Both the position numbers and the translations under genes were made by a program. The notes under the pieces were generated by a model. It made no database searches and was not told the origin of the DNA. It worked only from the letters and a program-made list of their open reading frames with translations. 64,000 nt of DNA from Flavobacterium album (GTDB taxonomy: Bacteria > Bacteroidota > Bacteroidia > Flavobacteriales > Flavobacteriaceae), in the NCBI RefSeq assembly GCF_003096035.1, contig NZ_CP029186.1, positions 2,493,001-2,557,000 of the forward strand. Direction: 5' to 3'. Shown piece after piece: positions 34,251-47,226 of this stretch. Every line of letters begins with the position of its first letter. Within the stretch, counting starts at the first letter, position 1.

Positions 34251-34618
34251 ATAGTAATATACTGACGATTTTCATGTGTTTTTGTAACATAACAGTGATA
34301 ATAATGCTATCAGCGGGACAAGGGTCAGAAGACGTAATAGTATATTATTAGTAAGTTCTCCATAATACTTAAAGAATATCTATTTTTCAGCTATTTGTTT
34401 TGCAGCCCAATCTGAATTTAACAACTATGAATCAACTATATTCTTACAACTACGTAATTAAAATTTATGATAATGAAACATCTTAGCCCAATCCAACCCC
34501 TTGTATTTTGATAATAAAAATATGAAATGTCGGTTTTTTATCTATTTATTTATCAATTTGTAATATATAGTAGTAATTTTTTTTTGTAACTATAAAAATT
34601 ATAAAATTCCTTGACATA
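34251..34618. other. AT-rich intergenic region
   Basis: No gene is visible. The first part should hold the promoter of the minus-strand gene at 34187 (TAAATTCG at one mismatch from TAnnTTTG). The rest is AT-rich sequence without clear repeats or structured RNA, leading into the conserved leader block at 34619. Confidence 0.5.
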
Positions 34619-34709
34619 CTTACGAAAACGGTATAGTTGTATTGTTGATGTATAGGTAAAATTGATTTTTGTAAGGCAGGAATTAATTTGTGTATGGTTT
34701 GTATATACT
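34619..34709 (+). promoter_or_regulatory. Duplicated promoter/leader block, copy 1
   Basis: A 40-bp block beginning CTTACGAAAACGGT (34619-34658, 38/40 identical to 40597-40636) is followed by a TTG (34669-34671), 21 bp of unconserved spacer, and a 19-bp block TGTATGGTTTGTATATACT (34691-34709, 19/19 identical to copy 2). TATGGTTTG (34693-34701) looks like a -7 element with one extra base, at the same TTG distance in both copies. It lies 60 bp before the ATG at 34761. Conservation amid diverged flanking sequence suggests shared regulation of the two paralogues. Confidence 0.75.
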
Positions 34710-34760
34710 ATATGTTATTTATATATTAATTAAGATTATTTTAGCCCAAAATCTAAATTT

Positions 34761-37700
34761 ATGATCTATAATTACCAAAAACAATTCAATGTGCTTTTGC
34801 TATTCATTTGCTTTATCTTTTCGCAATATGTTTTAGCTGGTAACGTAGTATGCGATACCCCTATTTGCACGAATGAATCATCGGATACGAATCATCCTGC
34901 TTTAACTACTTTTGCAGGATGTTCGGGAACGGACACACAAACACAACAAGGAACAGTTACTCTCGGATATAATTATACATTCGAGACAATTGGTACAAGC
35001 GTTAAGATTACTTGTCAGTTGCTTGATACAAAGACTGGTCTTGTGGCTGCTGCGTGGAGACAAAGCCCATTTCTTGAAACGGCAATGTCTGCTGTTTCAG
35101 GGCAGACACAAACATTTACTGTAACCATTCCTGGACAAACCGTAGGTGCTACGATTAGTTATGCAGTGAAGTTTGCTTATGCAGCAGGTGGTCAAATTGT
35201 TACCAAGTACATTAGCTATGTTGTTGGTAACAATTGTGTTACCGATACTTCTGCTCCTACAAATTTTACTGCTACCTTAGGAACAGTTACCGCAAATTCA
35301 GTCCAATTATTGTTTAATGGTACTGATGATTCGGGGTCATTATCCTATTCAATCACTTATGGTTCAACTACGGTAACCACTACCGGTACGTCTGGAACTC
35401 AAAAGTCATATGTTATTACCGGCCTTACTCAAAATACACCTTACAGTTTTAGCATAACAGCAAAGGATGCTGCCAACAATGTAGCCGCAAATGCCCCTTT
35501 AACGGTTACAGCAACAACATCTGTAGATCCGCCGCCGACTAACTTTACTGCGACACTAGGTACGGTTACAGCCAGTTCAGTTCAGTTATTGCTAAATGGC
35601 ACCGATGACTCTGGTACACTAACCTATACGGTCACTTATGGTTCAACTACTGTAACTACTACGGGTACATCGGGTGTTCAAAAGGCTTTTGTTATCAGCA
35701 ATCTTAGCCAAAATACAGCCTACAGTTTTAGCATAACAGCTAAAGACGGCTCCAATAATCTTGCGGCTAATGGACCGCTAACAGTTACTGCAACCACACT
35801 TGTGGATACAAGTAATGCGTGTTCAGGAACAAGTTCGATAGCAGCCGAAGGGACTTTCTCTGCGGGTTATAGCTATAATTTTACAAGCAGCGGAGGCAGT
35901 GTTACTGCAACTTTCACCTTACAGGATACTGACAAATCAGGGGTAGTAGCTTATTTGTGGATACAAACGCCATTTTCTGAAACTCCAATGACTAATACAT
36001 CAGGTCTAACATTCACTAAAACGGTAACAGGCCTGACAGTTGGTTCAACTATTAGCCTTGGTTGTAAATTTGCTTATGCCGGTGGCCTTGTCCGTACAAA
36101 ATATTTTACCTACACTGTGGGAGATACTTGTGGCGTTACTCCAGCAGATACACAAGCGCCGACAGGCTTTACTGCAACACTGGGCACTGTTACTATGAAT
36201 ACAGTACAGCTATTGCTCAATGCTACCGATAATTCAGGAGCTGTTACGTATACAATCACTTATGGTTCGACCACAACAACAGTCACTGGTAATTCCGGCG
36301 TACAGCAAGCCAAAGTAATCAGTGGTCTTTCACCAAGTACAGCCTATAGTTTTAGTATTACCGCAAAAGATGCTTCCGGCAATACAGCGGCTAATAGCCC
36401 TATTGTAGTAAATGCTACTACGTCTGTAGATACCAGCACTGCATGCGCAGGAACAAGTACGATAGCAGCCGAAGGGACATTTTCTACCGGTTACAACTAT
36501 AGCTTTACAACAAGCGGTGGTAATGTTACAGCTACATTTACAATGCTTGATACAGATAAATCAGGAGTAATAGCATATTTATGGATACAATCGCCCTTCT
36601 CTGAAACACCTATGACCAACACTTCAGGGCTTACATTTACGAAAACCTTAACAGGCCAGACTGTCGGTACCACAATTAGCATTGGGTGTAAATTCGCTTA
36701 TGCAGGCGGCCTTGTCCGTACTAAATACTTTACCTATACGGTAGGTGACAGCTGTGGTGTTGTTGTTCCGGATACTCAGGCACCAACAGCTTTCACTGCT
36801 ACGTTGGGCAGTGTTACATCAAGTACTGTGCAGTTACTGCTAAAGGCTACAGACGATTCGGGCGCTGTAACGTATACTATCACTTATGGAGCTACCACCA
36901 CAACGGTTACAGGTAACTCAAATGTACAAGTGTCGAAAGTTATTCTTAACCTTACACCGGAAACGGCATATAATTTTAGTGTTACCGCAAAAGATGCCAC
37001 CGGTAACACAGCAGCTAATGGCCCTATCGTAGTGCCGGCAACTACTGCGATTGATACTAATACCATGTGTGCGGGAACCAGTTATCAGGCGGCAGAGGGT
37101 ACATTCTCAACAGGATACAACTACAGTTTCCAGAGTTCTGGCAGCAGTGTTATTGTTACATTTACTTTGCTTGATACTGATAAATCGAGCGTAAATGCCT
37201 ATTTGTGGACACAGACGCCATTCTCTGAAGCAACAATGACCAATACATCAGGCCTTACATTTACAAAGACCGTTACAAACCAGACAGCAGGTGCAGTAAT
37301 TAACTTCTCGGTCAAATTTGCCTACGCAGGTGGTTTGGTACGTACTAAATATTTTAGCTATACAGTAGGAGACAACTGTAACGGCCTTGTTAACGATACT
37401 GAAATACCCGGTAACTTTACAGCTACATTGGGCGCTGTAACAGCAACTTCTGCAGAGCTGTTGCTTAATGGTACGGATAATTCAGGAACGGTGACCTATA
37501 CAATTACCTATGGCAGTACAACTACAACAGTTACTGGCGCCACAGGTGTACAACAGTCCAAAATAATTACCGGACTTATACCACAACATACTTATAACTT
37601 TAGTGTGGCAGCAACTGATACTGCAGGCAACGCAGCGGCTAATAACTCCATTGTCGTACCTGCAACCACCGCTGCCTTTGTAAACACAGCATGCATGGGA

Positions 37701-40307
37701 TACAGTTCAAGTGCGGCAGAAGGTACTTTCTCTACCGGATACAGCTATAGCTTTACCAGTAGCGGCAATACAGTTACGGCAACTTTTACATTGCTGGATA
37801 CTGACAAATCAGGTGTTATAGCCTATTTATGGAGGCAAACACCATATTCCGAAACGCCAATGACTAATATTTCGGGGCTTACTTTTACAAAAACATTGAC
37901 AGGTATCACGCCGGGAACACCGATTAGTTTAGCTGTTAAATTTGCCTATGCGGGCGGCCTTTCGCGTACCGTATATTTCTCTTATACGGCAGGTGACCAG
38001 TGTGATGGAAACCCGGTTATCGATACCGATATACCGACAAACTTTACAGCAACGTTAGGCACTGTTACAACAAACTCTGTGCAGATATTAGTTAACGGAT
38101 CTGATAACAGTGGCACCGTAATATATGATATTACTTATGGAGGAAATACTGTAACTGTTACAGGCAATTCAGGAGTACAGCAATCAGTAGTGATAACTAA
38201 TGGTATCGTGCCTGCAACTGCTTATACTTTTACGGTTTCCGCAAGGGATGCGTCTAATAATCATCCCACTAATAATAATATAGTACTTCAGGCTACTACA
38301 TTGCCAAATATAAGTACACCATGCTTAGGTATAAGCACACAAGCGGCAGAGGGCACATTCTCCACTGGCTATACATATAAATTCATAACAAACGGTACTA
38401 ATGTTACGGCCACATTTACATTACTTGACAGCGATAAAACAAATGTGGTGGCCTATCTGTGGAGGCAAACGCCATATTCTGAAATGTCAATGACAAATAC
38501 TACCGGTTTAACCTTTACGAAAACGGTAACAGGCCTTACACCGGGGATGACGGTTAACTTCTGTGTTAAATTTGCTTATGCAGGAGGGCTTTCACGTACC
38601 AAATACTTTAGCTATATCGTAGGGGATACCTGTGCGGGTGGTGTGGGCGATATGTTTACAACCACCTGGACGGGCTCATCGTGGAGTAATGGCATACCGG
38701 TTTCAAACCAATATAACGCAGTTGTTGAAGGCAACTATAACTCTGATACCAATGGCGAGATTGTTGCGGCATCATTAGCTGTGAACAGTGGCGACATGGT
38801 AATTTCAAGTGGCGATAACTTTACTATAAAAGGCGCTGTTACGGTTGATACGGAAGCAACATTTACTGTTGAGAATAATGCTAATCTTATCCAGTCTGAC
38901 GATGTGGACAATACAGGTGTAATCTCGGTAATAAAAGAAAGCGCGCCTATGTACAGGCTGGATTATGCAATGTGGTCTTCGCCGGTTGCGGCTCAAACCC
39001 TAAAAGCATTTTCTCCTGAAACCCTCAACAACCGTTTCTACCATTACAACCCGTTTACCGATGCGTATGCCACGGTAACAGATCCGGTAAATACCGTGTT
39101 TGGTGAAGGCGAAGGCTATCTTATCCGTGTAGCGAATACGCACCCTGCATTTGTAAATGCAGAAACTCCCGGAACGCCTTGGGAAGGAACATTTACAGGT
39201 GTACCGAACAATGGTAACGTGAGTGTAGCGGTAGTTCCGTTTGATGATGAGGAAGGCACCGAAAATGATGTGAACGGCTACAATAGCGTTGGCAACCCAT
39301 ATCCGTCGCCTATTAATATTGCTGCCTTCTTTGCAGCGAACCAGAACAACCTTGCCAGCAATACGCCTATTTATTTCTGGAGGAAAAAGAACGATGCGGC
39401 AACTTCATGCTATGCTTCGCTTACTCTTGCCGGCTATAACCAAAATGCAGGAAATGCATGGGGTGACAGCAGCAACGGAGTCTTCAACAACCCAAATAAC
39501 AGCGCCAACTGGGTTATCAATCCGGGGCAGGGCTTTATTGTTAAGGCAGTTTCTAACACAGTGGTTTTCAATAACGCTATGCGTGTGCCGGTGAATAATG
39601 GGCAGATATTCCGTTCGGCTATGGACGAAGAGGTTACCAAATCACGCCTTTGGCTGAACCTTACCAATGCAGCGGGCGCTTTCGGTCAGACAACGATAGC
39701 CTACACGCCTGCAACAACATTAGGGCTTGACTTTGGCTGGGATGGTGAAGCGATTACCGATGGAGAGATATCAATCTATTCTCTTGCAGGAGAATCGAAA
39801 CTTGGCATACAAGCAAGGCCGTCATTCGATGCTGCCGATGTGGTGCCGTTGGAATACAAGATTACAAATGCAGGAAATTATACTGTTTCAATTGACCATG
39901 TGGATGGTGTATTCGCTGCCGAACAGGATATTTATTTAAGGGATAACCTTCTGGGAGGTATTACGCACAACCTGAAGCAAGGCCCTTATGAGTTCACCGC
40001 GGAGGCAGGAACTATAGCAGGACGCTTTGATGTTGTATATGCAGAAGCCTTAAGTACTAACTTACCTTCGTTTGATGCCAACAGCATTGTTGCTTACAAG
40101 CAGGGTAATGTAATCAATATAAACACTGGTAACACTGATATGAAATCAGTTTCGGTTTATGATGTACAGGGCAGGCTGCTATACAGTGCCAATGATGTAA
40201 ATGCAGCATCAACGGCAATTACAGGCCTTCAGTCAGCACAACAAATGCTTATCGTGCAGGTACAGACAGTACAGGGTGCGAAAGCAAGCAGGAAAATAGT
40301 TTTTTAA
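34761..40307 (+). CDS. Giant T9SS protein with alternating Cys-bounded beta-modules and FN3 domains
   Basis: 1848 residues; signal peptide begins MIYNYQKQFNVLLLFICFIF and ends near residue 27. Six A modules begin at Cys 54, 354, 562, 770, 978 and 1188, each about 100 residues: CAGTS, AAEGTFSTGYSYSF, VTATFTLLDTDKSGV, AYLWxQTPFSETPM, KFAYAGGLxRTKYF and a closing VGDxC. They alternate with FN3 domains (FTATLGTVT, LLLNGTDDSG, AYSFSITAKDA); two FN3 domains are in tandem after the first A. The A-FN3 unit repeats every 208 residues (624 bp) between Cys354 and Cys978. From memory, A-like modules occur at the C-terminus of flavobacterial glycoside hydrolases. After about 1290 comes a non-repeated region (TWTGSSWSNGIP and on) and a T9SS-type C-terminus ending KASRKIVF. 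No catalytic domain was recognised; probably a cell-surface or matrix protein. Confidence 0.93.
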   Translation: MIYNYQKQFNVLLLFICFIFSQYVLAGNVVCDTPICTNESSDTNHPALTTFAGCSGTDTQTQQGTVTLGYNYTFETIGTSVKITCQLLDTKTGLVAAAWRQSPFLETAMSAVSGQTQTFTVTIPGQTVGATISYAVKFAYAAGGQIVTKYISYVVGNNCVTDTSAPTNFTATLGTVTANSVQLLFNGTDDSGSLSYSITYGSTTVTTTGTSGTQKSYVITGLTQNTPYSFSITAKDAANNVAANAPLTVTATTSVDPPPTNFTATLGTVTASSVQLLLNGTDDSGTLTYTVTYGSTTVTTTGTSGVQKAFVISNLSQNTAYSFSITAKDGSNNLAANGPLTVTATTLVDTSNACSGTSSIAAEGTFSAGYSYNFTSSGGSVTATFTLQDTDKSGVVAYLWIQTPFSETPMTNTSGLTFTKTVTGLTVGSTISLGCKFAYAGGLVRTKYFTYTVGDTCGVTPADTQAPTGFTATLGTVTMNTVQLLLNATDNSGAVTYTITYGSTTTTVTGNSGVQQAKVISGLSPSTAYSFSITAKDASGNTAANSPIVVNATTSVDTSTACAGTSTIAAEGTFSTGYNYSFTTSGGNVTATFTMLDTDKSGVIAYLWIQSPFSETPMTNTSGLTFTKTLTGQTVGTTISIGCKFAYAGGLVRTKYFTYTVGDSCGVVVPDTQAPTAFTATLGSVTSSTVQLLLKATDDSGAVTYTITYGATTTTVTGNSNVQVSKVILNLTPETAYNFSVTAKDATGNTAANGPIVVPATTAIDTNTMCAGTSYQAAEGTFSTGYNYSFQSSGSSVIVTFTLLDTDKSSVNAYLWTQTPFSEATMTNTSGLTFTKTVTNQTAGAVINFSVKFAYAGGLVRTKYFSYTVGDNCNGLVNDTEIPGNFTATLGAVTATSAELLLNGTDNSGTVTYTITYGSTTTTVTGATGVQQSKIITGLIPQHTYNFSVAATDTAGNAAANNSIVVPATTAAFVNTACMGYSSSAAEGTFSTGYSYSFTSSGNTVTATFTLLDTDKSGVIAYLWRQTPYSETPMTNISGLTFTKTLTGITPGTPISLAVKFAYAGGLSRTVYFSYTAGDQCDGNPVIDTDIPTNFTATLGTVTTNSVQILVNGSDNSGTVIYDITYGGNTVTVTGNSGVQQSVVITNGIVPATAYTFTVSARDASNNHPTNNNIVLQATTLPNISTPCLGISTQAAEGTFSTGYTYKFITNGTNVTATFTLLDSDKTNVVAYLWRQTPYSEMSMTNTTGLTFTKTVTGLTPGMTVNFCVKFAYAGGLSRTKYFSYIVGDTCAGGVGDMFTTTWTGSSWSNGIPVSNQYNAVVEGNYNSDTNGEIVAASLAVNSGDMVISSGDNFTIKGAVTVDTEATFTVENNANLIQSDDVDNTGVISVIKESAPMYRLDYAMWSSPVAAQTLKAFSPETLNNRFYHYNPFTDAYATVTDPVNTVFGEGEGYLIRVANTHPAFVNAETPGTPWEGTFTGVPNNGNVSVAVVPFDDEEGTENDVNGYNSVGNPYPSPINIAAFFAANQNNLASNTPIYFWRKKNDAATSCYASLTLAGYNQNAGNAWGDSSNGVFNNPNNSANWVINPGQGFIVKAVSNTVVFNNAMRVPVNNGQIFRSAMDEEVTKSRLWLNLTNAAGAFGQTTIAYTPATTLGLDFGWDGEAITDGEISIYSLAGESKLGIQARPSFDAADVVPLEYKITNAGNYTVSIDHVDGVFAAEQDIYLRDNLLGGITHNLKQGPYEFTAEAGTIAGRFDVVYAEALSTNLPSFDANSIVAYKQGNVININTGNTDMKSVSVYDVQGRLLYSANDVNAASTAITGLQSAQQMLIVQVQTVQGAKASRKIVF

Positions 40308-40332
40308 TTTTCACATTTTTAGTAGTTTAGGT

Positions 40333-40367
40333 AAAAGGGCTGTCTTACTAAAAAGACAGCCCTTTTT
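40333..40367 (+). terminator. Rho-independent terminator
   Basis: A 14-bp perfect stem (AAAAGGGCTGTCTT/AAGACAGCCCTTTT) with a short A-rich loop and T tail, 25 bp after the stop of the giant protein. It is palindromic and can act on both strands. Confidence 0.93.
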
Positions 40368-40401
40368 ATATCAGGGATTTTGAACGACAACTTATAGGTA
40401 G

Positions 40402-40494
40402 CTTTTAAATTATTTGGGCTTGGCGGACGGATTGTATTTTGTCAGGATACAAGCCGGCAATAAATCAATAACTAAAAAGCTTATAGTAAAATAA
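40402..40494 (+). pseudogene. Orphan remnant of a T9SS sorting domain (lost third paralogue)
   Basis: This intergenic stretch translates in one frame as LGLADGLYFVRIQ, then AGNKSITKKLIVK and a stop (40492-40494). This matches the C-terminal end of the downstream paralogue (LSDGIYMVKIYAGNKSVTKKLVVQ, given here in two parts: LSDGIYMVKIY and AGNKSVTKKLVVQ) at nearly every key position. Going back, the frame meets a stop at 40399-40401 and the preceding similarity (VAFKLFGL) continues in another frame, so it is decayed. It is too short to encode a protein and has no start. It is followed by a terminator of the same architecture as that of the downstream gene. Confidence 0.85.
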
Positions 40495-40513
40495 CATTTA
40501 AAATGTAACTATT

Positions 40514-40541
40514 AAAGCAGGGCATAACGTCCTGCTTTTTT
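40514..40541 (+). terminator. Orphan Rho-independent terminator after the remnant
   Basis: AAAGCAGGGC-ATAAC-GTCCTGCTTT (10-bp stem including one G-U) with a T tail. It has the same design as the terminator at 43608-43633 but closes no intact gene; it belongs to the decayed 3' end at 40402-40494. Confidence 0.85.
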
Positions 40542-40596
40542 ATTGCAAAAAGGATATTGAATCCTTTTAGGGATAAATTTGTAATTGCTTTACCTG

Positions 40597-40688
40597 CTTA
40601 CGAAAACGGTGTAGTTGTAGTGTTGATGTATAGGTATATTGAGGATGTTGTAGCAGTAAATTTCTACAATGTATGGTTTGTATATACT
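40597..40688 (+). promoter_or_regulatory. Duplicated promoter/leader block, copy 2
   Basis: It matches copy 1 (34619-34709) in the 40-bp CTTACGAAAACGGT block (40597-40636), the TTG (40648-40650), the 21-bp spacer length and the identical 19-bp TGTATGGTTTGTATATACT block (40670-40688). It ends 57 bp before the ATG at 40746. An earlier in-frame start (40557) would run through this block and is rejected. Confidence 0.75.
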
Positions 40689-40745
40689 CTTGTTTTAGCT
40701 ATGTGTGAAAAAATTACGATTATATTAGCAGAAAATATAAAATTT

Positions 40746-43595
40746 ATGAACAACAATTACCAAAAATGTATTAAGGTGCTGTCGCTTCTCATCTGTGTGG
40801 TTTTCGCGCAGTATTCCGGCTTCAGCAAAACAACAAACCTGAATAATACAATCACGACAGTTGATGATGCATGTTCGGGGACAAGCAATGTAGCCTCTCA
40901 GGGAAGTTTTTCTACGGGATACAGCTACCAGTTCCAGACAGTAGGCAACAGCGTTACTATTACCGCTACATTACTGGACACCGATAAAGTAGGTGTGGTA
41001 GCCTACATATGGCAGCAAACGCCATTTGTTGAAACGCCAATGCCTACAACGGGAGGGCTTACATTTGCGCAAACCATAACAGGCCAGACGCCGGGCGCTA
41101 CTATTCATTATGCGGTGAAATTTGCTTATTCCGGTGGAATGTCGGTTACGCAATACCTTAGTTATGTAGTAGGTGAGAATTGTGGCGGCGGCGGTTCTAC
41201 GGATACAGTAGCGCCAACAGACTTTACTGCTGCTGTGGGAACTATCGGATCTAATTCCGTCCAGTTCTTGCTTAACGGCTCAGATGATTCGGGCAGTGTG
41301 ATTTATACGATCACTTACGGCAGCAGTACTGCTACAACTACAGGTACTTCAGGCTCACAGCAGGCATTTGTTGTAAACAACCTGAATGCTGATACTGCTT
41401 ATACTTTCAGCATCACTGCAACCGATGCAGCTGGCAATGCGGCCGCAAATAACCCTATAGTATTGCAGGCGACTACACTTGAGGCTGTAGAGAACACTCC
41501 ATGTGCGGGAACCAGCAATGCGGCGGCAGAAGGCACGTTCTCAACAGGATATACCTACAGCTTCCAGACTACAGGAAACAGCGTTACCGCTACCTTCCAG
41601 TTGCTTGATACGGATAAAGTAGGCGTGGTAGCCTATCTGTGGCAGCAAACGCCATTTGTTGAATGGCCAATGACAGCCTCGCCGGGACTTACATTTACAA
41701 AAACGGTAACAGATCTTACACCGGGTACGGTTGTGAGTTTTGGTGTGAAATTTGCATATGCCGGAGGCCTTTCGCGTACATTATACTATTCGTACACCGT
41801 GGGCGACAACTGTACAGGTACTGTAGACACTGAAGCTCCTACAGCTTTTACAGCTACTGTAGGTACAATTACACCAACATCGGTGCAATTCCTTCTTAAT
41901 GGTACGGATGATTCGGGCAGCTTGATCTATACGATATCGTACAATGGCACAAGCGTAAACCTTTCAGGAAATTCAGGATCACAACAGGCTTATGTATTGA
42001 ACGGGCTTGATGCCGATACAATTTATAACTTCACGGTTACAGCGGCTGACTTGGCTGGCAACATGGCTGCAAACAACCCGATATCACTTACCGCTACAAC
42101 ACTGGCGCCAACAAGCAGCGTACCTTGTACGGGCACAGGGACCGAAGCACAGCAGGGATCATTCTCTACCGGATACAGCTACTCTTTCCAGACTGTAAAT
42201 GGCTCTGATGTGGTAGTTACCATTACAATGCTTGATACAGATAAAGTAGGCGTAGTCGCTTACCTGTGGACACAGACACCATTCACTGAAGCGCCAATGC
42301 AAAATGCAGGTGGATTGACATTTACTAAAACGCTTACCGGCCAGACACCGGGTGCAACTATAGGACTTGCGGTTAAATTTGCCTATTCAGGAGGTTTATC
42401 TGCAACGGCATACATCCCTTACGTTGTAGGCCAGGACTGCGAGCTTCCTGAAGATACAGAAGCGCCTGCCAACTTTACTGCTACAGCAGGAACTATTACT
42501 TCTGATTCAGTTGAAATACTGCTTAATGGTACAGACAACTCAGGGACTGTAATCTATACGGTAACTTACGGTTCTGAAACAGTAACGGTTACAGGTACTT
42601 CCGGTGTAGCAACATCAGTAGTTATCGATGGCCTTGATCCTGAAACTGCTTATAGCTTTAACGTAGAAGCAGCTGACGAAGCAGGCAACGAAGCGGCTAA
42701 CAATGCTATTGTAGTTGATGCTACAACGCTTATGATAGACAACGATGCCCCTGCTGACTTTACAGCTACTGTAGGAACGGTAACCGCAACTACTGTACAG
42801 ATACTACTAAATGGTACTGACAATTCAGGTTCTGTAACGTACACTATAACATACAACGGACAGACTACGACAGTTACAGGCGTTTCGGGAGAACAGACAA
42901 CAGTAACTATCAATGGCCTTTCTCCTGAAGCGGTTTATAGCTTTAGCGTAGTGGCGGCGGATGCAGCCGGTAACGTAGCTGCAAATAACCCGATCGTATT
43001 GGAAGCAACTACAATGGAAGATACCAACACAGAGTGTGCAGGTATGAGTTCATCGGCTCAGGATGGTGCTTTCTCTATCGGATACAACTACAGTTTTGAA
43101 ACTGTTGGTAACGATGTAACGGCAACTTTCACGATGCTTGATACAGATAAAGTGGGCGTTGTAGCTTACCTGTGGCAGCAAACTCCGTTTACTGAGACTC
43201 CTATGACAAATACAGACGGCCTTACATTTACTGCTACAGTTACAGGACAGACTGCTGGTACCGACTTGGCTTTCGCAGTTAAATTTGCTTACGCAGGTGG
43301 ACAGTCGGTTACAAATTACTATACTTATACAGTAGGGGAAGATTGTGGACTTGGCATTGAAACTCCGGAATTGGAAGCCGCTGTGAAGCTATATCCAAAC
43401 CCTGCGAACAATGTTGTAAACATCGATTCACAGCTTTCGAACATCTCTAAGGTTGAGGTATACTCTGTACTCGGTACAAAGGTAATGGAGTCTGCAAATA
43501 CCCAGCTTAATGTAGAAAACCTTTCTGACGGAATCTACATGGTAAAAATATATGCAGGAAATAAATCGGTGACTAAAAAACTGGTTGTTCAGTAA
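40746..43595 (+). CDS. T9SS protein with Cys-bounded beta-modules and FN3 domains (paralogue)
   Basis: 949 residues from ATG 40746, chosen because MNNNYQKCIKVLSLLIC matches the paralogue's signal peptide (NYQK is shared). Four A modules start at Cys 43, 253, 461 and 764, with FN3 domains between (four FN3 in all; two in tandem before the last A). A modules carry AEGTFSTGYxY, LLDTDKVGVVAYLWQQTPF and KFAYAGG; FN3 domains carry FTATVGT and LLNGTDDSG. The C-terminal sorting domain has VKLYPNPANNVVNI and ends VTKKLVVQ. It is a shorter relative of the gene at 34761 without its unique C-terminal region, so likely surface-exposed and carbohydrate- or matrix-related, with no enzyme domain. Confidence 0.93.
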   Translation: MNNNYQKCIKVLSLLICVVFAQYSGFSKTTNLNNTITTVDDACSGTSNVASQGSFSTGYSYQFQTVGNSVTITATLLDTDKVGVVAYIWQQTPFVETPMPTTGGLTFAQTITGQTPGATIHYAVKFAYSGGMSVTQYLSYVVGENCGGGGSTDTVAPTDFTAAVGTIGSNSVQFLLNGSDDSGSVIYTITYGSSTATTTGTSGSQQAFVVNNLNADTAYTFSITATDAAGNAAANNPIVLQATTLEAVENTPCAGTSNAAAEGTFSTGYTYSFQTTGNSVTATFQLLDTDKVGVVAYLWQQTPFVEWPMTASPGLTFTKTVTDLTPGTVVSFGVKFAYAGGLSRTLYYSYTVGDNCTGTVDTEAPTAFTATVGTITPTSVQFLLNGTDDSGSLIYTISYNGTSVNLSGNSGSQQAYVLNGLDADTIYNFTVTAADLAGNMAANNPISLTATTLAPTSSVPCTGTGTEAQQGSFSTGYSYSFQTVNGSDVVVTITMLDTDKVGVVAYLWTQTPFTEAPMQNAGGLTFTKTLTGQTPGATIGLAVKFAYSGGLSATAYIPYVVGQDCELPEDTEAPANFTATAGTITSDSVEILLNGTDNSGTVIYTVTYGSETVTVTGTSGVATSVVIDGLDPETAYSFNVEAADEAGNEAANNAIVVDATTLMIDNDAPADFTATVGTVTATTVQILLNGTDNSGSVTYTITYNGQTTTVTGVSGEQTTVTINGLSPEAVYSFSVVAADAAGNVAANNPIVLEATTMEDTNTECAGMSSSAQDGAFSIGYNYSFETVGNDVTATFTMLDTDKVGVVAYLWQQTPFTETPMTNTDGLTFTATVTGQTAGTDLAFAVKFAYAGGQSVTNYYTYTVGEDCGLGIETPELEAAVKLYPNPANNVVNIDSQLSNISKVEVYSVLGTKVMESANTQLNVENLSDGIYMVKIYAGNKSVTKKLVVQ

Positions 43596-43607
43596 TAACA
43601 TGTAATT

Positions 43608-43633
43608 AAAGGCAGGGCAACTGTCCTGCCTTT
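43608..43633 (+). terminator. Rho-independent terminator
   Basis: AAAGGCAGGGC-AACT-GTCCTGCCTTT, an 11-bp stem with one G-U pair, 12 bp after the stop codon. The T tail is short (TTTACG). Its sequence is related to the orphan terminator at 40514. Confidence 0.8.
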
Positions 43634-43705
43634 ACGCTACTATAGTAAATTAGTACCGGCATTTCAATTCAAACAGAGAGTAATTTTTCGTATGATAATT
43701 TTTGA

Positions 43706-43734
43706 AAAAAGACAGTCTTCGGGCTGTCTTTTTG
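43706..43734. terminator. Bidirectional terminator with UUCG tetraloop
   Basis: GACAGTC-TTCG-GGCTGTC forms a 7-bp stem (one G-U) with a stable cUUCGg loop, flanked by A6 and T5. It can work for the plus-strand paralogue upstream and, on the minus strand, for the crt operon, whose last stop is 256 bp away. Confidence 0.75.
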
Positions 43735-43989: not shown

Positions 43990-44448
43990 TTATTTCTGGT
44001 TCTTGTTGAAATACATCCTGAAATATTTCACCGGTACCCACAAAAAGCCATAACATTCGCCGTCATGCTTTTGCGTGTGCTTGTGGTGCTGCTTGTGGGC
44101 ACGCCTGATGGCAAGCAAGTAAGGGTTTTTGGTGTTTTTGAGGAAGCTTATACGCTGGTGAATGAAAATATCATGCACGAAAAAATACGCCATTCCGTAT
44201 AATGAAATGCCCATTCCGATGTAAAACAGGTAATTGTAATCCTGCATGGCCCCGAGGTACATCAGCACAATAGCGGGTGTCGCAAAGATCACAAAGAAAT
44301 AATCATTGCGCTCAAGATTGCCTTTATTGGAGTGGTCATGGTGGTCCCTGTGCAATGACCATAATAAGCCATGCATTATATACTTATGGATTACCCATGT
44401 AAGGCCTTCCATTACAAAAAATACTATAAAGACTATAAGAAATCCCAT
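43990..44448 (-). CDS. crtZ: Beta-carotene hydroxylase
   Basis: 152 residues, normal for CrtZ. A fatty acid hydroxylase superfamily membrane di-iron enzyme that adds 3- and 3'-hydroxyls to beta-carotene rings, giving zeaxanthin. The histidine motifs HKYIMH, HRDHHDH, HDIFIHQ and HKQHHKH are all visible. Membrane helices: near the N-terminus and about 50-90. It is the last gene of the crt operon, 18 bp after the unknown gene. A lycopene cyclase gene, needed to make its substrate, is not in the window. Confidence 0.93.
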   Translation of the reverse strand: MGFLIVFIVFFVMEGLTWVIHKYIMHGLLWSLHRDHHDHSNKGNLERNDYFFVIFATPAIVLMYLGAMQDYNYLFYIGMGISLYGMAYFFVHDIFIHQRISFLKNTKNPYLLAIRRAHKQHHKHTQKHDGECYGFLWVPVKYFRMYFNKNQK

Positions 44449-44466
44449 TGCTTGCTACTTTTTACA

Positions 44467-44916
44467 TTATTCTATGATGTCGTCTACCATTGATTTTAGC
44501 ACTTCAGAGGTAATTGTTCCCCTGTTGGCCATGATAAATTTTTTATCTTCGTCTATATCGTCATTATATCCCAAAAATCCGGGGGCATTCAACTGCACCG
44601 AGAGCCTTACAAAACGTATCTCGATATTAAGCGGCTCAGCCGCTACCGCTGCTTCAATATTTTTTTTTCCTTTCCGGAACGTACCCAGTTTGCTCAACGG
44701 GTTAGGCGTATGCTTTGCCCAAATCGACCGGAAAGCCCCCAGATAGGCCAGAGATACAGCATCTTTACGGTTTTCAAGCAGGGCAATCATTTCCTTACAA
44801 ACCGTTTTATCTCCCGGGGCGAGGCGGTAACTGTTCCTTACGGTATCCATTTCAGAAGGCATAATGCTTTTAGCTGAGAAAGAGCACAGCAAAAATAATG
44901 CGATCAGTGTCTTCAT
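44467..44916 (-). CDS. Exported protein of unknown function in the crt operon
   Basis: 149 residues, family not recognised. The signal peptide is MKTLIALFLLCSFSAKSI. The mature part is alpha-helical, with KTVCKEMIALLENRKDAVSLAYLGAF, AKHTPNPLSKLGTFRKGKKN and EPLNIEIRFVRLSVQL, and a C-terminal acidic stretch; TPR-like helix pairing is possible. Its start overlaps the crtB stop by 4 bp, and it is followed by crtZ, so it is translated with carotenoid genes. A role in carotenoid placement, turnover or envelope is inference only. Confidence 0.82.
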   Translation of the reverse strand: MKTLIALFLLCSFSAKSIMPSEMDTVRNSYRLAPGDKTVCKEMIALLENRKDAVSLAYLGAFRSIWAKHTPNPLSKLGTFRKGKKNIEAAVAAEPLNIEIRFVRLSVQLNAPGFLGYNDDIDEDKKFIMANRGTITSEVLKSMVDDIIE

Positions 44917-45749
44917 ACAATAGCAACTTTATACTGTACATAGCTGCTCATCATCAGGGAGATCTTCTGGCTGTTAGGTATCCGTATCCTGCTGTTTAAT
45001 ATCTTATGGGCAGGTGTTTTCCGGATCTTCCTGAAAAGCGACAGGTAATACCTGTAAGCCAGGTATACCCCAAAGCGGGATGATGCCGGTAATTTCCTTA
45101 TCCCTATCAGCGCTTCTGCAAATTCTTCCCTGATCTCCTGCTCAATGCTGCATTTTACTTCGTTATTGAAGGCTTCCATGTTCACGTTCGGAAAATAGGT
45201 TCGCCCCAGGACTGAGTAATCGTCTTTCATATCGCGAAGGAAATTCACCTTTTGGAACGCCGAGCCCAGCTTCATTGCAAAGGGCCTCAGCTCATCGTAG
45301 GCCGCTTTATCGCCTTCAACAAATACATGAAGGCACATAAGCCCTACTACTTCTGCCGACCCGAGTATGTATTCCTGGTAAAGCTCTTTATTGTAGGAAA
45401 CCGGGTCAAGGTCCATTTCCATGCTTTTCAGGAACTGGTCGATAAGGTCGCGCCCGATCTTATAGCGATGTACCGCATCCTGGAAGGAATTCATTATTGG
45501 GTTAAGTGAAATCTTCTCATCCAGCGCCTCGGTTGTCTGTTGCCTGAAACGCTGCAGCAGTTCGCGTTTGTTGTAGCCGTGAAAGCTGTCCACGATCTCG
45601 TCGGCCAGGCGTACAAACCCGTAAATAGCATAGATGGCAGGCCTTAGTTCCGCGCCCAGCGCCATAATCCCCATCGAAAAGCTGGTAGAGTATTTTCGTG
45701 TGGTAGCTTTGCTCACATGGTGCGATAGTTCATCATACAACTTTTTCAT
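44913..45749 (-). CDS. crtB: Phytoene synthase
   Basis: 278 residues, normal for bacterial CrtB. It condenses two geranylgeranyl diphosphates to phytoene. The first acidic motif is seen as ADEIVDSF (residues about 47-54) and the second as NFLRDMKDDY; YCxxVAGxVG is replaced by the related YILGSAEVVGLMCLHVF. The start overlaps the crtI stop by 17 bp, so translation is coupled. Confidence 0.93.
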   Translation of the reverse strand: MKKLYDELSHHVSKATTRKYSTSFSMGIMALGAELRPAIYAIYGFVRLADEIVDSFHGYNKRELLQRFRQQTTEALDEKISLNPIMNSFQDAVHRYKIGRDLIDQFLKSMEMDLDPVSYNKELYQEYILGSAEVVGLMCLHVFVEGDKAAYDELRPFAMKLGSAFQKVNFLRDMKDDYSVLGRTYFPNVNMEAFNNEVKCSIEQEIREEFAEALIGIRKLPASSRFGVYLAYRYYLSLFRKIRKTPAHKILNSRIRIPNSQKISLMMSSYVQYKVAIV

Positions 45750-47226
45750 AACGGGATGGTATATTTTTATTAATCTCTTTTGCTACTATTTTTCCTGAAA
45801 TTATTGATGGCGGGACACCCGGCCCCGGCACAGTTAGCTGACCTGTATAATACAGGTTGTCCAGCTTTTTGTTCCTTATGGAAGGCTTTAGCACCGCAGT
45901 TTGCCGCAGCGTGTTGGCCAGTCCGTAGGCATTGCCTTTATAGGCGTTATAATCCTGGGTGAAATCGCTTACACAATAGCTTCGCTGGTAATCGATTTTT
46001 GACCTGAGGTTTTTGATGCCGGAAATTTTCTCCATTTCCTCTATCATTTTGCCCAGGTATTTTTCGCGCAGCGCTTCGCCATCTTCAATGCCTATAGCTA
46101 ATGGCAACAGCAGGAAGACATTTTCATGGCCTTTGGGCGCCACCATATCATCGGTTTTAGAAGGGCAGCAGGCATAGAAAAGCGGATCTTCCGGCCACTC
46201 TTTTGTTTTATAAATGGCATCGATGTGCGTGTCGAGGTCGTGCCCGAAAAATAAATTGTGGTGCTTCAGGTTCGGGATCTTTTCGGTAAAGCCAAGATAG
46301 TAAATCAGGCAGGAGGGGGCAAAAGTCCTGTCCTCCCAGTACTCTTCTGTATAATTCCTGTGCTGTTTATCAAGGAGTGTCTCGGTATGATGATAGTCCG
46401 CTGACGCTACAACAGCATCAAAATCCATTGTAACACCATTTACCCTGAGTGCGGTAACGCTGCCTCCGTCGGTAATGATCTTTTCTGCCGTATGGCCGAA
46501 ATGAAAATTTACGCCTTGTTGTTCCGCCACTGTTTTCATAGCTTTTACCAGTTCGTAAAACCCTCCCAGCGGATAATAGGTGCCAAGCCCGTAGCCGCCA
46601 TAATTCATCAGGCTGTACAATGCGGGAATATCTTTTGGCGAAGCCCCCAGGAAAATCACGGGAAATTCCATCAGTGCTACCAGCATGGGGTTAGAAAAAT
46701 ATTTCTTTACATACGACCGGTAATCCGTCAGCAGGTCGAGCTTCAGGGCGCCTTTTGCGATCTTGAGGGAAAGGAACTCAAACCAGGACAGGCACGGCTT
46801 GGTGACAAAATCCTGCATTCCTACCTCATATTTATATTTTGCCGAATCCATGAAGCGTTCAAACTGCTTTCCTGCACCGGGCTCAATCTGCTCAAAAAGG
46901 GCCTTCATATCGCCATAGCTGTCAGGGAGCGATAGCTTTCCGTCGGCAAATATGATATCAAACTGAGGGTCGAGTCGCACCAGGCTGTAAAAATCTGAGG
47001 CCTGGTAACCAAAATCTTTAAAGAAATTGTCAATGATATCGGGCATCCAGTACCAGCTGGGCCCCATATCGAATGTATATCCGTTATCTGTAGTAAACTG
47101 CCGCGCGCGCCCTCCCGGCTGGCTGTTCTTTTCGAATACATGAACTTCAAAGCCTTCCTTTGCTAAATATGAAGCAGCCGACAGCCCCGAAATACCCGAA
47201 CCAATTATGGCAACCTTTTTTTTCAT
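45733..47226 (-). CDS. crtI: Phytoene desaturase
   Basis: 497 residues, normal for CrtI. It introduces double bonds into phytoene to give lycopene. The FAD-binding Rossmann motif GSGISGLSAASYLAKEG (8-24) and VFEKNSQPGGRARQF are at the N-terminus; YYTGQLTVPGPGVPPSIISG marks the C-terminal signature. It is the second gene of the operon, 3 bp after the MarR-type regulator. Confidence 0.95.
   Translation of the reverse strand: MKKKVAIIGSGISGLSAASYLAKEGFEVHVFEKNSQPGGRARQFTTDNGYTFDMGPSWYWMPDIIDNFFKDFGYQASDFYSLVRLDPQFDIIFADGKLSLPDSYGDMKALFEQIEPGAGKQFERFMDSAKYKYEVGMQDFVTKPCLSWFEFLSLKIAKGALKLDLLTDYRSYVKKYFSNPMLVALMEFPVIFLGASPKDIPALYSLMNYGGYGLGTYYPLGGFYELVKAMKTVAEQQGVNFHFGHTAEKIITDGGSVTALRVNGVTMDFDAVVASADYHHTETLLDKQHRNYTEEYWEDRTFAPSCLIYYLGFTEKIPNLKHHNLFFGHDLDTHIDAIYKTKEWPEDPLFYACCPSKTDDMVAPKGHENVFLLLPLAIGIEDGEALREKYLGKMIEEMEKISGIKNLRSKIDYQRSYCVSDFTQDYNAYKGNAYGLANTLRQTAVLKPSIRNKKLDNLYYTGQLTVPGPGVPPSIISGKIVAKEINKNIPSRYEKVV

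Follow-up and report, generated by a model that had tools for sequence, protein, structure and literature searches.

A probable gene relic with a T9SS sorting tail directly upstream of an intact relative in Flavobacterium album

The DNA between two large neighbouring genes of Flavobacterium album, here called A and B, contains the last 22 codons of a type A T9SS sorting domain together with a stop codon and a stem-loop. This remnant is homologous to an intact relative, gene B, and chance resemblance is excluded. The sequence comparisons lend good support to the view that a B-type gene for a T9SS substrate once lay directly 5′ of B and left this relic. An earlier note on this DNA had read the stretch as a deleted third member of the array; the relic directly 5′ of B stands, whereas membership of an A–B array and deletion as such, though they make the simplest reading, go beyond what is shown. 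The window analyzed is the whole stretch of 64,000 nucleotides (contig NZ_CP029186.1, positions 2,493,001 to 2,557,000, assembly GCF_003096035.1), and coordinates are given within it (Table 1).

Table 1. Features of the A–B region, in window coordinates.
Feature	Position	Strand	Basis
Leader 5′ of A, homologous to B leader (76% identity)	34605..34781	+	
Gene A, encoding 1848 aa; carries fn3 domains, six repeats resembling CBM56 and a C-terminal module that includes a type C sorting domain	34761..40307	+	
Stem-loop 3′ of gene A, 14-bp perfect stem, probable terminator	40333..40366	+	stem; absent from terminator-scan list
Joint from A's stem-loop to remnant, no detectable likeness to A, B or leaders	40368..40425	+	shuffle test on 40366-40425
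In-frame stop TAG, upstream closure of remnant frame	40399..40401	+	
Eight more in-frame codons (LLNYLGLA), sorting-domain likeness weak at best	40402..40425	+	profile match and DNA homology limits
Remnant proper, a type A T9SS sorting-domain end of 22 codons (DGLYFVRIQAGNKSITKKLIVK) plus stop TAA	40426..40494	+	TIGR04183 match, DNA homology to gene B tail from 43527, codon-position pattern
Stem-loop with T run, 10 pairs, probable terminator of lost gene	40514..40538	+	terminator scan; after-stop score highest vs B among 73 tails
Leader 5′ of B, beginning ~45 bases past remnant's stem-loop	40583..40766	+	
Gene B, encoding 949 aa; carries fn3 domains, four repeats resembling CBM56 and a type A sorting domain; remnant's best own-genome match	40746..43595	+	
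Stem-loop 3′ of gene B, like remnant's, without long T run	43607..43634	+	blastn and stem comparison

The frame from 40309 ends in the series stop, TTTYR, stop, LLNYLGLADGLYFVRIQAGNKSITKKLIVK, stop, with the stops TGA at 40381, TAG at 40399 and TAA at 40492. The translation given for 40402..40494 in the earlier note is present, and its T9SS character was confirmed by TIGR04183, which scores the 30-aa piece (40402-40491) at 30.1 bits against a curated cut-off of 23, the match beginning at residue 5 of the piece; PF18962 reaches 24.4 bits, below its cut-off of 27. The interrupting upstream stop reported at 40399-40401 was likewise verified, with the TGA as a further one. A six-frame TIGR04183 search of the whole genome, with stops read through, recovers the remnant at 29.7 bits (E 2.2e-6) among 93 matches, and it is the sole one with internal stops. 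Only positions 47-72 of the 72 profile positions are covered, so the domain is incomplete. The remnant shares this part and the lysine-rich end KKLIVK with type A T9SS C-terminal sorting domains (TIGR04183/PF18962), but lacks the upstream two thirds of a complete domain, as well as a signal peptide and a body: ahead of it neither gene body nor signal peptide was found, and the open frame is 30 aa long, behind the stops at 40381 and 40399.

Running TIGR04183 upstream through the stops did not raise the score (29.7 bits, as against 30.1 for the 30-aa piece). Upstream extensions of the domain via the VAFKLF or IFSSLGKRAVLL frames are suggestive by eye and were rejected, since the score does not rise; the IFSSLGKRAVLL frame sits in the 3′ end of A, a part homologous to the 3′ end of an A-type gene in a related genome (G208, probably MFBS3-15). 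When 40366-40425 was compared with A, B, their leaders and neighbours (13 targets, 300 shuffles each), nothing scored above the shuffles, the lowest p being ~0.11. The frameshift that the earlier note saw after VAFKLF is therefore unsupported, as this stretch resembles its targets no better than shuffled sequence and the profile gains nothing upstream. The same joint carries no trace of the leader or body of a lost gene, and deletion is indistinguishable there from replacement by A. Positions 40376-40393, considered as a trace of the lost gene's start-codon region, were rejected (best alignment to the start of B not significant, p ~0.15). A second T9SS tail in a short open frame (66 aa) was seen at L217 (G000:C1:1467753-1467905, minus strand), where the final part of a 781-aa frame falls into another reading frame inside the sorting domain, through a true frameshift or a sequencing error.

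Homology between the remnant and the end of gene B was demonstrated by blastn, which aligns the two from 40426 through the stop codon and into the stem-loop (79/114 positions, 7 gaps, E 1e-7 for that pair). None of 2000 dinucleotide shuffles of the remnant DNA reached the observed score against B, either over the whole stretch or over the after-stop part (0/2000 each), and residue shuffles of the 30-aa piece (200 tries, 73 tails) reached a maximum of 46 where the real score is 96. The claimed alignment to the C-terminus of the downstream paralogue is thus beyond what shuffled sequence gives. Its proposed extent of ~30 codons from 40402 shrinks to 22 at the DNA level, where homology starts at 40426, while at the other end the homology continues past the stop and into the stem-loop. 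Sorting-domain tails are short, and intergenic DNA might come to resemble one by chance or convergence; with a profile match above the curated cut-off, the genome-wide E of 2.2e-6, no success in 2000 shuffles and the codon pattern described below, this explanation is already contradicted and its probability is negligible.

The relation to B was ranked against 73 of the 92 other TIGR04183 matches in the genome and the DNA 3′ of them; the 18 weakest of the rest and one higher-scoring row were omitted. Gene B is at the top of these own-genome type A tails both in protein score (96, next 71) and in DNA score (53, next 32), and again for the DNA after the stop, there by a small margin (36 vs 32). 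Across the 228 proteins compared, the scores against the remnant are 96 for B, 95 for its orthologue P0123, and 92 each for P0124 and the GH81-type P0036. Since P0036, with a GH81 domain by Pfam, comes this near to B, and many members of the genus match B only over approximately its last 280 residues, the remnant could derive from some other gene whose likeness to B is confined to the C-terminal part; a GH81 beta-1,3-glucanase with an fn3 domain and a type A tail would be one candidate. We consider this parentage improbable, as no own-genome tail but that of B exceeds 71 among the 73 compared, the after-stop DNA is likest B's by the small margin given, and the site is directly 5′ of B. Two small profiles, built from 10 B-type tails (B's own included) and from 54 GH81-size proteins chosen by length and a C-terminus filter, score the remnant at 49.1 and 43.0, respectively; they do not separate the parents, because P0036 itself scores higher with the B-type profile (55.5 vs 53.7).

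The remnant and B also have similar stem-loops after their stops, and both still fold despite stems that differ in length and sequence. The earlier note had given the remnant a terminator of the same stem design as that of B. The likeness of the two stems holds, but a terminator scan lists only that of the remnant (40514-40538), leaving out those directly 3′ of A and B, and its 4 sites are no excess over a mean of 3.5 in shuffled DNA. Because the scan finds no more than shuffled DNA does, the terminator labels in Table 1 refer to stem, position and homology. A second terminator-like stem 3′ of B, at 43706-43733, has arms that share a GGGCTGTCTT / AAGACAG motif with the stem-loop of A.

The description of the sorting domain as decayed does not fit the 22 remaining codons. 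Their differences from B fall mostly at the third codon position (6/1/15 at positions 1/2/3), with pN 0.20 and pS 0.79, the latter from 14.5 silent sites, and none of 2000 neutral simulations was as constrained and stop-free as the remnant. The free, unconstrained drift expected of a relic is absent from this leftover. The codon-position pattern indicates that the lost gene was long functional and that its body was lost late; selection acted on the tail through most of its separate history from B. With the constraint still visible over 22 codons, the loss, if this is a relic, would be recent relative to the split from B. As for the split itself, the after-stop DNA of G208's B is unlike that of the window's B (724/1000 shuffles as good) and unlike that of the remnant (319/1000). 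After-stop DNA common to the remnant and B and not to G208 speaks for duplication within, or close to, the lineage of the window, whereas the high silent divergence speaks against this and for an older split; few sites underlie either pointer.

Genes A and B encode large secreted proteins that probably bind sugars. Structure prediction gives their repeats the fold of CBM56, a module that binds beta-1,3-glucan (VIA-align; model of mean pLDDT 86.7). They are 20% identical to 5t7a and differ from CBM56 in that the Pfam profile matches none of the 10 window repeats at E 0.01; the relative P0009 does match PF22184 (28.0 bits, cut-off 27). On the predicted fold, the proteins of the array probably bind beta-1,3-glucan. 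The repeats of A stand at 624-base spacing (35811, 36435, 37059, 37683) and then 630, within 35811-38633, and such regularity is likely to give ground for unequal crossing over and change of copy number. A conserved leader of ~150 bases lies 5′ of both genes, parts of which are common to family genes in G208, G189 and G078. A genome search tolerating up to 3 mismatches finds its 25-base core exactly twice, and the leader is possibly a promoter or control region specific to the family.

Gene A, unlike B, carries at its end a sorting domain of type C (NF033708, 51.2 bits), not of type A. The remnant might be the former type A tail of A itself, stranded with its terminator when recombination gave A a type C module and its own stem-loop. 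Leader and repeats are common to A and B, and the leader of A is closer to that of B (similarity 155) than to that of the A-type gene in G208 (93). A-type genes do change ends, as in P0009, which combines an A-like start with a different C-terminus and a PF18962 match there. Members of one family end in different T9SS tags. Type C modules would also have been available, at least six other proteins of the genome matching the C-terminal third of A among the matches listed, and the nearest own-genome copy of the module (L215) being 70% identical. A donor junction with L215 was rejected: blastn of window 38600-40760 stops at the stop of A (40306), and no DNA is common beyond it.

Against such a swap stands the A-type gene of G208, which lies at another locus, on another contig. 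It carries the same C-terminal module as A, with homology that passes through the stop to about window position 40345, inside A's stem-loop, and the 139 bases left on that contig past the homology hold no tail-like match. With both module and after-stop DNA present in G208, the present end of A is not new; a swap would then predate the split from G208, and a useless tail would hardly retain its coding pattern for so long. We regard an origin of the remnant from A as unlikely. The leaders suit more than one history: that of A is closest to that of B (155), which would suit local duplication or exchange, and it is closer to the G208 A-type leader than B's is (93 vs 55), which would suit A having travelled as a whole unit.

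Gene B was searched in 398 genomes of the genus (5 matches at E 1e-95, own included) and in 397 of the family (3 matches, own included), and a further 31 genomes around a second centre gave no genome beyond those already found. The array and its surroundings were set against the loci of G208, G078, G189 and G213, with G486 and G616 left out. Within the stretches compared, the DUF7935 neighbour occurs only in G208, whose B is syntenic and where the order is DUF7935 gene, GH2 gene (938 aa), B orthologue; this B is 57-66% identical to that of the window, so G208 is not close. Flavobacterium sp. AG291 has the peptidase, DUF7935 and carotenoid genes without A or B in the neighbourhood. These two arrangements indicate that A and B are not always together and that the site varies between species. 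As instances of unrelated sequence at this site in relatives, both count against the earlier note, and neither genome is close. In AG291 the orientation of the carotenoid cluster (43990-47226, compared with L024) is reversed with respect to the peptidase and DUF7935 genes. No relative with three copies was found, and no contig with more than two array-repeat genes was apparent among the best 120 of 770 and the best 120 of 1409 matches, where contigs were told apart by their length alone. Proteins that suggest sister genomes are P0123 (Flavobacterium sp. DGU11, the B orthologue), P0003 (an A orthologue, 86% identical), P0009 with P0124, and P0004 with P0012.

The likely origin of the remnant is a third B-type paralogue between A and B, here called M, that was deleted or overwritten. 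M would have stood head to tail directly 5′ of B's leader, and its product, bearing a type A sorting domain, would have been exported by the T9SS. The gene would have kept its function over a period in which the tail came to differ from that of B chiefly at silent sites. One event or a small number of them would then have removed its leader, signal peptide and body, through deletion or through replacement as A arrived, leaving 40426-40494 and the stem-loop at 40514-40538. Homology across the stop codon into the stem-loop is as expected of a duplicated gene end, and M is favoured because the remnant is directly 5′ of B's leader and A and B are neighbouring relatives with homologous leaders; we infer that M belonged to the A–B array. 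M is weakened because an intact copy is unseen, P0036 (92) is near B (96) and the after-stop margin (36 vs 32) is small, and also because a GH2 gene is 5′ of B in G208, neither A nor B is at the site in AG291, the joint is traceless, and pS is drawn from 14.5 sites. The 22 leftover codons most likely do nothing now, and the stem-loop of the remnant may still halt transcription from A.

Relics of bacterial genes include 3′ ends that stay behind in gene arrays. The remnant is likewise truncated and bodiless, lies beside intact relatives and has kept its stem-loop; it differs from such relics in that its 22 codons are still clean and its parent copy was not found. We conclude that it is a real gene fossil of the ordinary kind, whose body was lost after a long functional life. 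By position, in our own assignment, it corresponds to motifs D and E as named in a review (PMC10202324), according to which 22 residues at the end of the HBP35 sorting domain, comprising these two motifs, suffice for export of GFP. The recognizable remnant is exactly 22 codons, the same length as that minimal export tag. The leftover might be an intact minimal export tag, a spare part of a kind that truncated or new genes could acquire where stranded tags lie beside variable arrays; we hold this to be very doubtful, and among the literature titles listed none concerned stranded T9SS tails. If true, reuse of tags would help to explain the different tails on related genes of the A/B family. Taken alone, the remnant is a local relic in a variable array, and it would gain greater weight only if stranded tags prove to be reused. 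What it does show is gene turnover in a Flavobacterium array of secreted, probably beta-1,3-glucan-binding proteins.
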